Positions 24,492 to 34,068 of a stretch of 41,262 bases of DNA are shown one piece after another (position 1 is the first letter of the stretch; every line of letters begins with the position of its first letter). The DNA lies in assembly GCA_012729455.1 (NCBI GenBank), contig JAAYDC010000028.1, positions 1-41,262 on the forward strand. Direction: 5' to 3'. A program made the translations under genes and the position numbers. Under the pieces are notes generated by a model. The model did not search any database and was not told where the DNA came from. It saw only the letters and a list, made by a program, of their open reading frames with translations. This DNA comes from Chloroflexota bacterium (GTDB lineage Bacteria > Chloroflexota > Anaerolineae > UBA1429).

Positions 24492-25541
24492 ATGCTGCGA
24501 CGTATTATCCTGCTTGCGTTGGTTGTCATATTACTGGTTCCCGCCATGAGCGTAGCTGCGGCAGGGCCCAACCTGCTGGAAAACCCGTCTTTCGAACGGC
24601 CCTATATCCCCATGCCCGCCAAGGAAAACTGCCGTATTGCGGCGCCGTGGGTGCCCTATTATTACGAGGGCGCGCCCTTTGAGGTGGAGCAGGGCTACCG
24701 CCTGGCGCCCGAATACAAGGCTGCCTTTTACTGGGAGGCGCCCGGCAACCGCGTGCGCACCGGCGAGCTCTCGCAGCAGTATTTTCACTCCTACGGCAAC
24801 TTTGAGGGCGGCATCCTGCAGCGCGTCAGCGGGTTTCGCGCCGGCGAAGCGCTGCGCTTTAGCCTGTGGGTGATGTCGTGGTCGTGCGATAACGAGTCCA
24901 AAGGCAACTGCGGAGGCAACACCTCGGGCGATCCTTCGCCCATGCATCTCAAGATCGGCATCGACCCGACGGGCGGCACGGACGCGCGTTCGCGCAACAT
25001 TGTCTGGTCGGCCGAGACCAACTCGTACGACGAGTGGTCGCAGATCTCGGTGGCGGCCATTGCCCAGGGCCCGGCGGTGACGCTATTTGTCTATTCCTAC
25101 CCGGATTACCGCTCGCAGGATAACAACGTCTACCTGGATGATGCCGAGCTCGTGCGCATCAGTGCCGCCGAGTACGACGACATCGCCAGCCCCGCGCCGG
25201 CTGCCGCGGCTGCGCCTGCGCCTGTCGTTGCGGCGTCCAGCTGGCCGGTGCGCGGCAGCCTGCTGGGCAACCGCGGCGGCGCGTATGCCAATGCCGCTTA
25301 TGTGGCGGATGCCTCCGGCCCGGTGACGCTCAGGATCGAGCTGCTGCCCTATGACCTCGTGATCGGCATGGCCAGCGGCTTTGAGGTCTACGGCCCGAAC
25401 GGGCTGGTGGCGGCCTCGGGGCAGGGCAATGTTTCGAACGTGCTGGAAGCCAGGTTCGACGTTGTGGCCGGCGTCGAATACCGCGTGCAGATCTATAACT
25501 ATGCCGAAGGCCTCTCGCTCAGCTATTACCTGAGCGATTGA
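24492..25541 (+). CDS. Secreted protein with carbohydrate-binding-like N-domain
   Basis: The protein has 349 residues from ATG 24492 behind GAGGAGGG. It has a signal peptide at 1-24 (AMSVAAAGP). Residues 25-225 form a CBM4/9-like jelly roll: the start NLLENPSFERP, VRTGELSQQYFHSYG and the end NNVYLDDAELVRI are typical of carbohydrate-binding modules in Chloroflexota. A short Ala/Pro linker leads to a second beta domain (250-349), GPVTLRIELLPYDL to VQIYNYAEGLSLSYYLSD, similar to PPC-type (peptidase C-terminal) domains. It probably binds glycan or matrix at the cell surface; no catalytic domain is present. Confidence 0.72.
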   Translation: MLRRIILLALVVILLVPAMSVAAAGPNLLENPSFERPYIPMPAKENCRIAAPWVPYYYEGAPFEVEQGYRLAPEYKAAFYWEAPGNRVRTGELSQQYFHSYGNFEGGILQRVSGFRAGEALRFSLWVMSWSCDNESKGNCGGNTSGDPSPMHLKIGIDPTGGTDARSRNIVWSAETNSYDEWSQISVAAIAQGPAVTLFVYSYPDYRSQDNNVYLDDAELVRISAAEYDDIASPAPAAAAAPAPVVAASSWPVRGSLLGNRGGAYANAAYVADASGPVTLRIELLPYDLVIGMASGFEVYGPNGLVAASGQGNVSNVLEARFDVVAGVEYRVQIYNYAEGLSLSYYLSD

Positions 25542-25561
25542 TCGGCCCTGCTAGAGTGCAG

Positions 25562-25595
25562 CGGCGGCAGCCCGGCATAGGGCGGCCGCCGTTTT
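25562..25595 (+). terminator. Likely intrinsic terminator
   Basis: Stem CGGCGGC (25562-25568) pairs with GCCGCCG (25585-25591) around an inner CCC/GGG pairing, followed by TTTT. It lies 20 bp after the secreted-protein stop. Confidence 0.65.
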
Positions 25596-25615
25596 GCGTT
25601 CAGTTGGGCGGCTGG

Positions 25616-26185
25616 TCAGGGGCGAGCGGTGCGGCGCGAGGCGTTACGGTAGGCCTGGCTGCGCACGCGGTCGATCTCTTCCAGCACGTCTTCGGGGTGC
25701 AGCTCGGTCTCGAGCTGTACGAGGGTCTCATCCTCGTTGTTGTCGATATCCATGCGGTCCTGGATGGCGTCCAGCATCTGGATCACGCGGGTGAGCTCAT
25801 ATTCGCTCAGCAGGCCGATCTGCAGCGCCAGGTCGGCATGGCGCTCGGCCTGTGCTTCCGAGCGGCGCTGGGTGATCAGCACAAAGATCGAGAGCACAAT
25901 CGCCTCGAGCGAGACCACGGTGGTGAGCATGTTGTAGGGGAAGGGGTCAAAGGGCGTGATGCCGAGATGCCCAGAGTTGATGATCAGCCAGGCCGCGAAA
26001 AAGAGGATGTTGATCACCAAAAAGCTGATGCGGCCGGTGTATTCGGTGATGGCATCCGCCAGGCGGCTGTACCAGGGGCGCGCCAGGTCGGCCTGGGTGC
26101 GCAGATGGATGATGGTGTGGATGTTGCGCTCCAGCACGTTGATCATGCCGGGCCGGTCATAGGGCGGGATATACTCCTCTGGCAT
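25616..26185 (-). CDS. DUF1003 membrane protein
   Basis: The protein has 189 residues from ATG 26185 behind AAGGAG. The DUF1003 pattern is clear: NIHTIIHLRTQADLARPWYSRLADAITEYTG before TM1 (ISFLVINILFFAAWLIIN), then FDPFPYNMLTTVVSLEAIVL as TM2 with FVLITQRRSEAQAERHADL directly after. The cytoplasmic tail (110-189) is acidic and helical. DUF1003 proteins are widespread; their role is not established. It follows the secreted protein gene at 26250 on the same strand, 64 bp away. Confidence 0.9.
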   Translation of the reverse strand: MPEEYIPPYDRPGMINVLERNIHTIIHLRTQADLARPWYSRLADAITEYTGRISFLVINILFFAAWLIINSGHLGITPFDPFPYNMLTTVVSLEAIVLSIFVLITQRRSEAQAERHADLALQIGLLSEYELTRVIQMLDAIQDRMDIDNNEDETLVQLETELHPEDVLEEIDRVRSQAYRNASRRTARP

Positions 26186-29664: not shown

Positions 29665-29773
29665 GTGGGTATGCCGGAGCGAAATGAGGGTATCTCGGCG
29701 ATGAGCAGCCAACCGCACAGCGGCGCAGCGCGAGAGCCGCCAGCCGGGCTCGTCGCCCAACGGGATGCGCCGC

Positions 29774-29938
29774 ATGACGGAGTTTCCCACCCTCACCTTT
29801 TTCGCCAGCAAAGCCGACGCGGATGCCTATTGGGCGTGGCTGGTGTCAGAGAAAAAGTATTATGATACCGATCCCGACTGGCGCTGGCAGGGCTATGGCC
29901 GCTATGAGAAATCGCGCCGCCTCGGCTGGCCGTATTAG
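29774..29938 (+). CDS. Small protein of unknown family, copy 1 (54 aa)
   Basis: The frame runs from ATG 29774 (or ATG 29765, three codons earlier) to TAG 29936. It reads MTEFPTLTFFASKADADAYW, then WLVSEKKYYDTDPDWRWQGY and GRYEKSRRLGWPY. The Trp/Tyr-rich composition and normal codon use argue that it is coding. A diverged relative with the same A-D-A-x-A-Y-W and W-H/R-W-Q-G-Y-G motifs lies at 31605-31727, on the other side of the glycosidase-like gene. It is near a portal remnant and may be of phage origin. An intrinsic terminator follows. Confidence 0.5.
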   Translation: MTEFPTLTFFASKADADAYWAWLVSEKKYYDTDPDWRWQGYGRYEKSRRLGWPY

Positions 29939-30016: not shown

Positions 30017-30136
30017 CTTTACGTGAAAAGGTGAGATAGGCGTATGATATACTAAAGATACAGGAACAAGTTACAGGAGATTGTACCCAAGAATATATCT
30101 CTAGTTGTTACGCAGTACTTTAAGGAGTTGCTGATT

Positions 30137-31606
30137 ATGGACAGGATCAAGATTGGATCGCGCAGAGAAGTGTGCTGGGATGAATACCTGATCGATCAAG
30201 CCCAGGATGTTCGCGTACAGATGCATCATCCAGAGTTTCGGAATGTTGTTTTGGATTGCAATGCTCCCTGGGAAGGTAATCGCTGCGGTTATTTTGTGCT
30301 CTTGAACGATCAGGGGCAATTTCGTCTTTACTATCGTGGTCTGAATTATGATATCGATCAGGATGCAAAGCCGATCAAACACTTTCCGGCTACGATGTGC
30401 TATGCCGAGAGCAGCGACGGCAAAAGTTTCCAGCGTGTTCCGGTTCGCAAGATTCCGTTTTGGGGAACGACGGACAACAATATTCTTTTGAACACGATCC
30501 GCGACAACATGTTTTTTTTCAAAGATACCAATCCGGATTGCGCATCTGAGGCTTTATATAAAGGACTAGCCGAAGACAAACAGGCACTGTGGCTTTATGA
30601 AAGTGCTGATGGAGTAAACTTTGAGAAAAAGCGGATGCTGATCAACGATGGTGCGTACGATTCGATGAACGTAGCCTTTTGGGATGCGATTTCCGAACAG
30701 TATTTTTTGTTCTACCGGGGAATTCACGGTGCGGGGACGGAGGGTGGAAAATGGACGGCACAACAGGGCAGCGCACGGCACACTTCAAGTGTCCGGGATG
30801 TGCGGGTCAGGACCTCTAAAGACTTTGTGACCTGGTCAGAACCGCAGATGATTCGCTTTGATCCGGCGCGGGACGACTTGGAATTATATACGAATCAGGT
30901 GCAGCCTTACTATCGGGCCAAGCACATGTTCATCGGTTTTCCGACGCGTTATACCGATCGTTATAAAGACACGCAGAATTTTGCTTATCTGCCGGACAAA
31001 GAGCATCGTGGCCGGTTAATTCGGGCGGAAGGACGCACGGGGACGGCAATGACCGACGCGGCTGTAATGACTTCCCGAGATGGTTTGTACTTTCGCCGTA
31101 CAGAAGAAGCGTTTCTGACTCCGGGCATCGAGCGTGACTGGAACTGGTATTATGGCGACTGCTATTTTGCTTATGGTATGGCAGAAACCGACGGAGACCG
31201 TCCCGGTTCGCCCAGGGAGATATCCATGTATGCAGGGGGTGATTACGGTGTCAACTCTGTCAAGCTGTGCCGGTATGCCATTCGCCTGGACGGTTTCTTT
31301 TCTTGGCGCTGTGATTACCAGCCCGGTACGGTTGTAACCAAACCGCTGATTTTTGACGGGGGTATACTGTCGATTAACTTTGCCACCTCTGCCTTGGGTT
31401 ATATCCGCATTCGGTTGTTGTCAGAGGACGGCACGCCGATAGACGGCTTTGATTCCGGGCGGTTGTTTGGCGACAGCGTGGATCGCCCGGTAGATTTTCA
31501 GGGGGATCTTGCTATCCTGGCAGAGAAGCCAGTCCGTATGGAAATAACCATGAGTGATGCGGACCTTTATTCGTTCAGATTTACACCGAAAGTCAATTTG
31601 TGCTGA
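30137..31606 (+). CDS. GH32/GH43-like beta-propeller protein, probably transferred
   Basis: The protein has 489 residues from ATG 30137, with AAGGAG nine bases upstream. The start CWDEYLIDQAQDVRVQMHHP and APWEGNRCGYFVLLNDQGQF are the pattern of large hypothetical proteins often annotated as GH32-like in Planctomycetes and Lentisphaerae (F-x-D-x-Y-L-I-D, P-W-E-G-N). Propeller-type strands follow, for example WLYESADGVNFEK, RVRTSKDFVTWSEP and VMTSRDGLYFRR, and a beta-sandwich C-terminus. It has no signal peptide. The gene is visibly richer in A/T than most of the window and lies between two relatives of one small gene, so horizontal gain is likely. It probably acts on a plant or microbial sugar; the substrate is unknown. 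Confidence 0.72.
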   Translation: MDRIKIGSRREVCWDEYLIDQAQDVRVQMHHPEFRNVVLDCNAPWEGNRCGYFVLLNDQGQFRLYYRGLNYDIDQDAKPIKHFPATMCYAESSDGKSFQRVPVRKIPFWGTTDNNILLNTIRDNMFFFKDTNPDCASEALYKGLAEDKQALWLYESADGVNFEKKRMLINDGAYDSMNVAFWDAISEQYFLFYRGIHGAGTEGGKWTAQQGSARHTSSVRDVRVRTSKDFVTWSEPQMIRFDPARDDLELYTNQVQPYYRAKHMFIGFPTRYTDRYKDTQNFAYLPDKEHRGRLIRAEGRTGTAMTDAAVMTSRDGLYFRRTEEAFLTPGIERDWNWYYGDCYFAYGMAETDGDRPGSPREISMYAGGDYGVNSVKLCRYAIRLDGFFSWRCDYQPGTVVTKPLIFDGGILSINFATSALGYIRIRLLSEDGTPIDGFDSGRLFGDSVDRPVDFQGDLAILAEKPVRMEITMSDADLYSFRFTPKVNLC

Positions 31607-31727
31607 TGGAGCCGACGCGGCTGCTTACTGGGAAACGGTGGCAGAGTGCAGCAGCATCCAGCGTTATCCCAACTGGCACTGGCAGGGCTATGGCAATTAT
31701 GACGTTCTTGATGGCACGCGGCGCTAG
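31605..31727 (+). pseudogene. Fragment related to the 54-residue protein, copy 2
   Basis: The frame immediately overlaps the stop of the preceding gene and reads DGADAAAYWETVAECSSIQR then YPNWHWQGYGNYDVLDGTRR. It aligns with SKADADAYW...DPDWRWQGYGRY of copy 1 and shares the 11 bases AGCCGACGCGG. The N-terminus is missing at the junction with the glycosidase-like gene, suggesting that gene arrived inside or beside it. Confidence 0.45.
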
Positions 31728-31955
31728 GCGCTGAACCTGTGCCGCTGCATGATAGGACCACCGCGCGCGACGAGCGCTGTGGCGGTGGGTAGCTTTTGTC
31801 TCATTCAGAGCTTGTATAATCGCTTCGGGCCTTTGGCAGATATCAGGTGCATCAGCCCGCTGGAAAGGAGCGGTATCCGCCTGGGCTAAACCACCATCCG
31901 CCGACGACCTTTGCAGAGCTGCTGGTTCGTTTCCGTCGATACAAGTAGGCCGGGT

Positions 31956-32588
31956 TTACAGCAGCGGATCGATGAGCGTCTCGCGGATGTTCTGTAGCAG
32001 TTCCTGCTGGGCGCAGGGGTTGGCATCCGCGGGGAGGGTGATGTGGATGTGCACGTGCACCCCGCCGGTGCGCGTTAGCGTCAGCGCCTCGTTCGCGGGG
32101 ACGGGCGCCGGCTCGCCGGGGGGCGGCGTGTAGGGTTCAGTGTTGTTGCGCGGGGCATCGCCGCTCAGCCGGCCGGCGGTTTCAGCCAGCACCTGAAAGG
32201 TGCGCGCCTGCAAACGCGAGACCTTGGCCGAGGTGCCGTCCGCTTGGGCAAAATAGGTCGCTAGATCGCTGGTGGGCAGGCTCCAGGCGTGCTCGCCGCG
32301 GATCTCGAACAGGTCGCGATAGTGGCTCATCAGGTGTGCGGCCAGCCCAGCCTGGAAGGCGCTCTCGGAGGTCATCTGAAAGAGCGCTGCCGCCTGCGCC
32401 GTGCGCCGGCCAGTATCATCGATAAACCCGAGGTTGCGGATGATCGATAGCGTGGCGCATTCGTTGCGCGGGGCGATCCCCAGCTTTTTCAGCGTCTCGC
32501 TCGAAAGCTGGGCCGGAAAGTTGCTGCGCAGGGCCTGCACGAGCTGGTATACATAAGTTGGGGCAGTCCCATAAGGATACGTTGCCAT
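31956..32588 (-). CDS. DUF5343 family protein, leaderless-type start
   Basis: The protein has 210 residues from ATG 32588. Residues 5-150 match DUF5343: YGTAPTYVYQLVQALRSNFP, then ETLKKLGIAPRN, LSIIRNLGFIDDTGRRT and LMSHYRDLFEIRGEHAWSL. Family members share this helical fold; the function is not established. The tail (155-210) has a Pro-rich stretch and VHVHIHITLPADANPCAQQE. There is no Shine-Dalgarno. Instead a promoter lies so close that transcription should start at the ATG. It is divergent from the RNA gene candidate at 32684. Confidence 0.8.
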   Translation of the reverse strand: MATYPYGTAPTYVYQLVQALRSNFPAQLSSETLKKLGIAPRNECATLSIIRNLGFIDDTGRRTAQAAALFQMTSESAFQAGLAAHLMSHYRDLFEIRGEHAWSLPTSDLATYFAQADGTSAKVSRLQARTFQVLAETAGRLSGDAPRNNTEPYTPPPGEPAPVPANEALTLTRTGGVHVHIHITLPADANPCAQQELLQNIRETLIDPLL

Positions 32589-32594
32589 ACGCGT

Positions 32595-32622
32595 ATTCTA
32601 GCACATTTGCCGCCAGACACAA
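32595..32622 (-). promoter_or_regulatory. Leaderless promoter of the DUF5343 gene
   Basis: On the minus strand TTGTGT (32617-32622), 16-bp spacer, TAGAAT (32595-32600), ending only six bases before the ATG. Two direct copies of CACAAAAT (32618-32625 and 32637-32644) lie between this and the divergent RNA promoter. Confidence 0.5.
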
Positions 32623-32648
32623 AATGTTTGTCGCATCACAAAATATAA

Positions 32649-32677
32649 TTGACAAGTCAGTTCGCATCTGCTATAAT
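32649..32677 (+). promoter_or_regulatory. Perfect consensus sigma-70 promoter
   Basis: TTGACA (32649-32654), exactly 17 bp, TATAAT (32672-32677). Both hexamers are full consensus, which is rare for protein genes and typical of stable RNA genes. The start is expected near 32684. Confidence 0.85.
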
Positions 32678-32683
32678 GCGGCT

Positions 32684-32905
32684 TGTGTAGTTGAGGGGGG
32701 TGTACTTGGGGTAATCTCCGGTTGGGAAGGAACCCGGCTGGGCCTCAACCGCACATAAAGACGGCTGGGATAATTCGGCATTGAAGCAGCACCTTGGGGG
32801 AAGGTGCTGCCCGCTCAGGGTACCTCTGGCGTCGCGTAATACATCCGGCGCCAGAGCTGAGCGGCTCAAATGACAAACCAGGCACGCATCGCGTGCCTGG
32901 TTTTT
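32684..32905 (+). ncRNA. Structured small RNA candidate, about 220 nt
   Basis: There is no credible ORF, but a perfect promoter lies before it and an intrinsic terminator after it. Four helices can be seen. H1: GTTGAGG (32690-32696) with CCTCAAC (32743-32749), with CCGGTT/AACCCGG inside. H2: GCAGCACCTT (32786-32795) with AAGGTGCTGC (32801-32810) and a GGGGG loop. H3: CCGCTCAG (32811-32818) with CTGAGCGG (32857-32864), containing CTCTGGCG (32824-32831) with CGCCAGAG (32849-32856). H4 is the terminator. It does not fit RNase P, tmRNA, SRP or 6S RNA as I know them, nor a riboswitch, because the following gene is on the other strand. The function is unknown. Confidence 0.7.
32875..32905 (+). terminator. 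Intrinsic terminator of the RNA gene
   Basis: A 13-bp stem (32875-32887 with 32891-32903) has an ATC loop and ends in TTTTT (32901-32905). It may also help stop the convergent SDR operon. Confidence 0.9.
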
Positions 32906-32908
32906 GTT

Positions 32909-33685
32909 CTAGATCCTGCGGCCGCCGGTGATGTTGAGCTCGGCACCGATCACGTGGCTGGCCTCGTCCGAAGCCAGATACAATACCCCGTTGGCGATAT
33001 CCTCGACGCGCTCGAGCTCTCCCAGCGGCGATTTGGCGGCGGCATCCGCCAGAAAGGCCACGCCGTTGCCATAAGTCTCGGTCTTTAAGGCGATCTCGCC
33101 GGGGGTCGCCACCCAGCCGACGGTAACCCAGTTGACGCGCACCTTGTCCGGCGCATAGGCCTTGGCCAGCGTGCGGGTGAGCGTCAGCAGGGCGCCCTTG
33201 GAGCACGAATAGGCCAGCCGATGGGTAGAGCCCAGATAGGCCATGCCGGTGCCGATGTTGATGATCGCACCGCCGCCCTGCGCGCGCATCAGCGGGATGG
33301 CCTCGCGGCAGCACAAAAAGGCGCCTCGCACGTTGACATCAAAGACCTCGTCCCACAGTTCGCACCCCACCTGCAGATCCGGCTCCTGGGGCGTGATGGC
33401 GGCGTTGTTGACCAGGATGTCGATGCGCCCAAAGTGCGCCTGGGTGCCATGGATCAGCGCCACGCAGTCGGCCTCGCGCGAGACGTCGGCCGGTATGGCC
33501 AGGGCACGCGCACCCGTCGCGGCGATCTCATCCGCCACTAGCCGGCAGCGTTCGGCGCGGCGCCCCGAGATCACCACGGCGGCGCCTTCTTCGGCTAGGC
33601 GGCGGGCGATGCCCTCGCCCATCCCGCCCGACGAACCCGTGATGACCGCCACTTTGCCGGCAACCCGGCCGCAGCCGGCCATCAT
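32909..33685 (-). CDS. SDR family oxidoreductase
   Basis: The protein has 258 residues from ATG 33685, which overlaps the stop of the VOC gene (ATGA). It is a classical SDR: TGSSGGMG (16-23) binds NAD(P), DVS at about 67-69, NNAA (93-96), N118, and Y159-x3-K163 (YSCSK). The usual catalytic Ser 13 residues before the Tyr is Thr146 here. The C-terminus ITGGRRI is typical. It should reduce or oxidise a small alcohol or sugar; the operon with a sugar isomerase and CBM9-like protein favours a sugar-derived substrate. It is the last gene of the operon. Confidence 0.9.
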   Translation of the reverse strand: MMAGCGRVAGKVAVITGSSGGMGEGIARRLAEEGAAVVISGRRAERCRLVADEIAATGARALAIPADVSREADCVALIHGTQAHFGRIDILVNNAAITPQEPDLQVGCELWDEVFDVNVRGAFLCCREAIPLMRAQGGGAIINIGTGMAYLGSTHRLAYSCSKGALLTLTRTLAKAYAPDKVRVNWVTVGWVATPGEIALKTETYGNGVAFLADAAAKSPLGELERVEDIANGVLYLASDEASHVIGAELNITGGRRI

Positions 33686-34068
33686 GCCGCCCCCACGGGG
33701 GTCATGACCATAAAGCCGTTGCCGTCCGGGTCATACACCATAAACCACACCCCGAAAAAGTCGTCGCGGAGCTCTTCCACCCGGGCCCCGCGTGCGCTCA
33801 GGCGCGCGTGTTCGGCGTGCGCGTCGGGGCAGCGCAGGATCAGGTCGGGCGCGGGCGTGGACCGGCCCGGCATGGCCTCGTTGATCATGCTGATCTCCAG
33901 CAGGCTCAGGCTGGTCTGGGCGCCCTCGGGAGCCACCTCCAGCCAGGTGCGGCACTCATCCAGCGGGCCCTCGCGCAGCACCTTCCAGCCCATCACATCC
34001 AGCCAGAAACTACGCGCCTCGGCCTGCGAACGCACGTAGAGGTTCACCATCATGATCTGGTCGGTCAT
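33682..34068 (-). CDS. VOC (glyoxalase/dioxygenase superfamily) protein
   Basis: The protein has 128 residues from ATG 34068 behind GAGGAACAGAG. It shows the beta-alpha-beta-beta-beta modules of the VOC fold: MVNLYVRSQAEARSFWLDVMG with KVLREG, LILRCPDAHAEHARLSARGA and FGVWFMVYDPDGNGFMVMTP. The metal-ligand positions are not complete (few His), so it may be a binding or resistance protein rather than an enzyme. Its start overlaps the stop of the 53-residue ORF, and its stop overlaps the SDR start, which ties the three genes together. Confidence 0.88.
   Translation of the reverse strand: MTDQIMMVNLYVRSQAEARSFWLDVMGWKVLREGPLDECRTWLEVAPEGAQTSLSLLEISMINEAMPGRSTPAPDLILRCPDAHAEHARLSARGARVEELRDDFFGVWFMVYDPDGNGFMVMTPVGAA

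Follow-up and report, generated by a model that had tools for sequence, protein, structure and literature searches.

Several kinds of bacterial RNA resemble the locus described here in part. 6S RNA (RF00013) is a stand-alone structured RNA of ~200 nt with a strong housekeeping promoter, whereas RNAs of the CsrB/RsmZ type comprise several hairpins and carry GGA in some of their loops. Trans-acting small RNAs (sRNAs) of intergenic regions have their own promoter and terminator, contain no open reading frame (ORF) and are narrowly distributed. Rapid evolution, with lineage-specific gain and loss, has been described for some bacterial sRNAs (PMC8557413). Furthermore, DUF3800 has been connected with putative non-coding RNAs (PMC10910872).

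Here, we analyse an intergenic locus of a Chloroflexota bacterium, found in a contig stretch of 41,262 nt, referred to below as the window. A preliminary description had proposed that the locus encodes a new structured RNA behind a perfect consensus promoter. We find a unit of ~222 nt with its own promoter and terminator and no ORF, situated between a divergent DUF5343 gene and a convergent short-chain dehydrogenase (SDR) gene (Table 1). Given the promoter, the lack of an ORF, the strand-specific structure, the terminator and the lack of a known RNA family, this unit is probably a genuine, independently transcribed and lineage-specific small non-coding RNA gene.

Table 1. Features predicted at the candidate RNA locus (coordinates within the window).
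Feature	Position	Strand	Basis or description
DUF5343 gene, divergent	31956..32588	-	PF17278 E 7e-11; PADLOC PDC-M34A E 4e-17
Direct repeat CACAAAAT, two copies spaced by 19 bases, between DUF5343 and RNA starts	32618..32644		Read from sequence
Promoter TTGACA-17-TATAAT	32649..32677	+	12/12 consensus, TG before -10
Predicted small non-coding RNA, ~222 nt	32684..32905	+	Fold; no Rfam match; no ATG ORF in core
H1: closing stem 5 + 7 pairs (UGUGU/GCACA, GUUGAGG/CCUCAAC), three-way junction	32684..32755	+	z -3.0
P2: small linker hairpin GCUGG-GAUAAU-UCGGC	32764..32779	+	Fold
H2: perfect 10-bp hairpin, loop GGGGG	32786..32810	+	z -4.9
H3: 8-bp stem enclosing, after a 5-nt bulge, 11 or 12 nested bp	32811..32864	+	z -5.0
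Intrinsic terminator, 13-bp stem + U tract	32875..32906	+	Terminator scan, fold
SDR gene, convergent	32909..33685	-	Ends 4 bases from terminator

Promoter and coding potential

The promoter upstream of the candidate RNA matches the consensus in full, as had been claimed, with the -35 hexamer at 32649-32654 and the -10 hexamer at 32672-32677. A promoter scan of 31900-33700 returned this site and no other, with 0.4 expected from shuffled sequences. In this genome and across its family, perfect-consensus sites mark genuine signals. The 2.64-Mb genome holds 10 copies of the perfect TTGACA-17-TATAAT pattern against none of the reversed pattern, so the signal is real; composition would predict 0.04. 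Perfect sites likewise occur in 15 of 15 family genomes, where the reversed control gave 0. Most of the other perfect promoters that were read in the same genome open directly into reading frames. At one locus (L004/L005, G000:C7:146797-146907), two of them stand back to back and lead into divergent reading frames, one of which resembles, by eye, an Hsp20 family protein. From the position of the -10 hexamer, 6-8 nt upstream, we infer that the RNA starts near 32684. The direct repeat between this start and that of the DUF5343 gene is a possible operator.

The predicted transcript contains a single ATG, at 32870. On the + strand, the longest frames starting inside the RNA core run to 20 and 30 aa, both from TTG; another TTG frame, of 45 aa, starts at 32794 and continues through the terminator. 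Having examined ATG and alternative-start frames, we saw no credible ORF or small protein in 32684-32905. Searches with Rfam 15 families at the gathering threshold gave no match anywhere in the 41-kb window, and over the RNA stretch, at E up to 10, returned chance matches only, to families of eukaryotic and of snoRNA type. Because the next gene converges on the unit, it is not the leader of anything now downstream. The preliminary description thus holds in outline: it had recognised a unit of ~220 nt with promoter, hairpins and terminator, without an ORF, belonging to no known RNA family, distinct from 6S RNA and not a leader of the present downstream gene.

Fold and terminator

The full unit folds at -113.2 kcal/mol, with a z of -7.0 against shuffles; with the terminator removed, the + strand of 32684-32870 still folds at -90.2 kcal/mol (z = -4.9). 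The - strand of the RNA body likewise scores well against its shuffles (z = -5.1), as is expected of any set of inverted repeats. After correction for their content of G and C, we ranked 1,372 segments of 187 nt from both strands of the same contig. The + strand of the RNA region tops this ranking with residuals of -3.7 to -3.9 sd, the first place being taken by the overlapping segment 32761-32947 at -3.9 sd, and the - strand reaches only -1.4 sd, which is no outlier. The RNA region is therefore one of the window's most highly structured parts, on the + strand only, a property that does not by itself prove a functional RNA. The other strongest + strand outlier of the window, 25501-25747, lies behind the stop of an ORF ending at 25541 and comprises a GC-rich hairpin followed by TTTT; it is perhaps just a terminator.

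The predicted RNA comprises four hairpins, H1, P2, H2 and H3, and the terminator, each of which folds more strongly alone than its own shuffles. The inner hairpin of H1 is G-U-rich and bears the loop AAGGAA. In the full-length MFE structure, a long-range UUGAG/CUCAA pairing replaces part of H1, and the centroid retains H1. Of the three hairpins listed previously, the strong + strand structure and the 10-bp arm of H2 were recovered; the nested 8-bp arms given for H3 are in fact 8 pairs followed by 11 or 12 nested ones, and P2 was missing from the list.

The terminator stem-loop at 32875-32903 has 13 perfect pairs, the stem length reported earlier, with a loop of ATC, and is followed by TTGTTCT. 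The run of five T that had been noted is present when the last stem bases are counted. Terminator-like sites are not rare in this stretch, 1 being found where shuffles predict 1.4; it is the length of the stem that stands out (z = -7.4). As the stop codon of the SDR gene lies 4 bases away, the terminator may serve both strands.

Search for homologues

A blastn search with the RNA, covering 60 relatives as well as plasmids and phages, returned only the self-match. A covariance model built on the single sequence gave no match in the 60 relatives and no accepted homologue in 396 genomes of the class. Four weak model matches in the class genomes, the best with an E of 0.0018 before correction for 396 genomes, were rejected, as they break many of the pairs and for the most part overlap or adjoin coding sequence. 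A scan of GTDB with a linker pattern returned 14 unrelated stretches, whose titles named no Chloroflexota and none of which the model matched, and viral pattern scans returned 0 and 5 matches, all unrelated to the RNA. Lastly, we screened ~105 distinct regions downstream of perfect promoters, 10 of them in the window's genome and the others in genomes of the family, for ORFs and terminators, and found no counterpart of the RNA among them. The candidates read in this screen, those with a terminator or no ORF, consisted of what looked like leaders, together with an rRNA promoter, a tRNA region and unrelated sequences.

Since no homologue was found, the helices stand without evidence from covariation, and the wider reading, a conserved RNA class, is not supported by the 60 relatives or the 396 class genomes; the present evidence does not define a new RNA class. 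Because searches from one sequence have limited reach, these results are to be read as a sign of a narrow or fast-changing RNA, not necessarily a unique one. The lack of homologues fits the fast change and the lineage-bound gain and loss reported for some bacterial sRNAs. The nearest relatives searched belong to other genera of the same family, with no genome of the same genus among them, so that a gene of recent origin would look the same as a remnant in decay.

Neighbouring genes and a second structured unit

The divergent neighbour was correctly named as a DUF5343 gene, and it begins only 96 bp from the RNA. Its supposed leaderless promoter is weak: the candidate, TTGTGT-16-TAGAAT, matches at 8 of 12 positions by reading and falls below the threshold of the scanner. 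DUF5343 is scattered thinly through the class, in 8 of 298 genomes, and a scan of GTDB with the protein found no relative. In the relatives L158, L159 and L165, a further protein of ~175 aa, with a shared NGTYENGWYDACAVM-like region, is encoded after the DUF5343 gene; the gene in the window stands alone, without this downstream partner. The closest homologue, 49% identical, is in genome G001 and sits at a contig end, leaving its upstream DNA unreadable. No counterpart of the RNA occurs in the readable flanks of other DUF5343 genes of the class, and the idea that homologues might stay beside DUF5343 thus fails wherever a locus has readable upstream DNA.

Further upstream in the window, a 57-aa ORF is present in two copies, at 29765-29938 and 31554-31727 (DADAYW...WQGYGRYE and GADAAAYW...WQGYGNYD). 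The DNA repeats are 86-87% identical and 1.8 kb apart, and the copies flank a 492-aa ORF at 30128-31606, a layout that would fit insertion of the 492-aa gene or duplication of the small one.

Elsewhere in the genome, a second structured non-coding unit (L011:1501-1625, G000:C25:60742 onward) lies behind a perfect TTGACA-17-TATAAT promoter. It folds into a three-way junction with a long closing stem and faces, in convergent orientation, a DUF3800 gene matching PADLOC PDC-M04A. The unit has no Rfam match, and blast against the 60 relatives returned a single stretch of 30 nt, in G047. Kinship between the two RNAs is suggestive by eye and no better than shuffles. We note the parallel between the DUF5343-side and DUF3800-side RNAs and do not claim it as a rule.

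Alternative explanations

The unit could instead be an orphaned leader, from some class of riboswitch or attenuator not yet described, whose gene was lost or inverted, leaving the promoter, an aptamer-like three-way junction and the terminator. Attenuation leaders are built in the same succession of promoter, fold and terminator, and the three-way junction of H1 would suit such a leader; elsewhere in the family, sequences that by reading we take to be T-box-like leaders lie behind perfect promoters (for example, L067 and L042). Against this, pairing between the terminator arms and the RNA body is no better than chance, with no antiterminator above shuffles, no Rfam riboswitch or T-box matches the locus, and the downstream gene is convergent. 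We regard a leader origin as unlikely.

A locus with no functional gene, in which chance or relict inverted repeats lie beside a terminator belonging to the SDR operon, would account for the lack of detected conservation, for the proximity of the terminator to the SDR stop and for the equal frequency of terminator-like sites in shuffles. It is distinctly improbable in view of the perfect promoter, correctly oriented and the sole one in its stretch, of + strand structure far beyond composition and of a U tract that is better on the + strand.

The RNA might also be one half of a two-part module with DUF5343, for example as an RNA antitoxin or as a regulator of a defence-associated protein. The closeness of the divergent gene points this way, as do the match of its product to PDC-M34A, a PADLOC candidate-defence model, and the second perfect-promoter RNA beside a DUF3800 gene, a family itself tied to putative non-coding RNAs. 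RNA nt 20-36 could moreover form a weak duplex with the start of the DUF5343 mRNA (z -2.6). However, this was the one weak signal among 21 duplex tests of the RNA against neighbouring mRNAs, and it is lost on correction for that number. The readable DUF5343 flanks of the class carry no trace of the RNA, several of these genes have a protein partner instead, and the closest homologue offers no upstream DNA to read. Such a module is very unlikely, and, like the orphaned leader, less likely than an sRNA gene. That RNA and DUF5343 form a module of a new kind, with an RNA antitoxin or cofactor of a defence-associated protein in parallel to the DUF3800-side RNA, seems to us more doubtful still. Antisense action on the neighbouring genes was rejected on the same duplex tests.

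Possible mode of action

For the favoured reading, an sRNA gene, we propose that housekeeping RNA polymerase would start near 32684 from the full-consensus promoter, presumably at a high level, make ~220 nt of strongly folded RNA and halt at the 13-bp terminator. The RNA may then act in trans, making contact by the exposed purine-rich loops of H1 (AAGGAA) and H2 (GGGGG) and by the linker UAAAGACG. These elements could pair with C/U-rich stretches of mRNAs or bind a protein, a mechanism suggested by the loop sequences only. Neither Hfq nor CsrA was found in the genome by searches that were positive in control genomes, so the RNA would work without them. If transcribed, it would add to the sRNA repertoire of a lineage that, as far as these searches show, has no detectable Hfq or CsrA, and would be a case of sRNA action independent of both.

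Comparison with known systems

The candidate shares with 6S RNA its stand-alone organisation, its size and its strong housekeeping promoter, but it has no rod with a central bubble. It also has no match to RF00013, and the genome's own 6S gene is a separate locus (G000:C9:41682-41848, 69.9 bits). With RNAs of the CsrB/RsmZ type it shares several hairpins and GGA in some loops; unlike them, it contains only 4 GGA in 187 nt, about the level set by composition. A CsrA-titrating role was rejected, as GGA is not in excess and no CsrA gene was found. The DUF3800-associated RNA candidates are alike in pairing a structured RNA with a small uncharacterised, defence-listed protein and differ in the neighbour, which here is a divergent DUF5343 gene. 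Hfq-dependent sRNAs differ in their requirement for a protein that the searches did not detect in this genome, and the candidate is folded more heavily along its length than is typical of them. In its own promoter and terminator, its lack of an ORF and its narrow distribution, it resembles the trans-acting sRNAs of bacterial intergenic regions.
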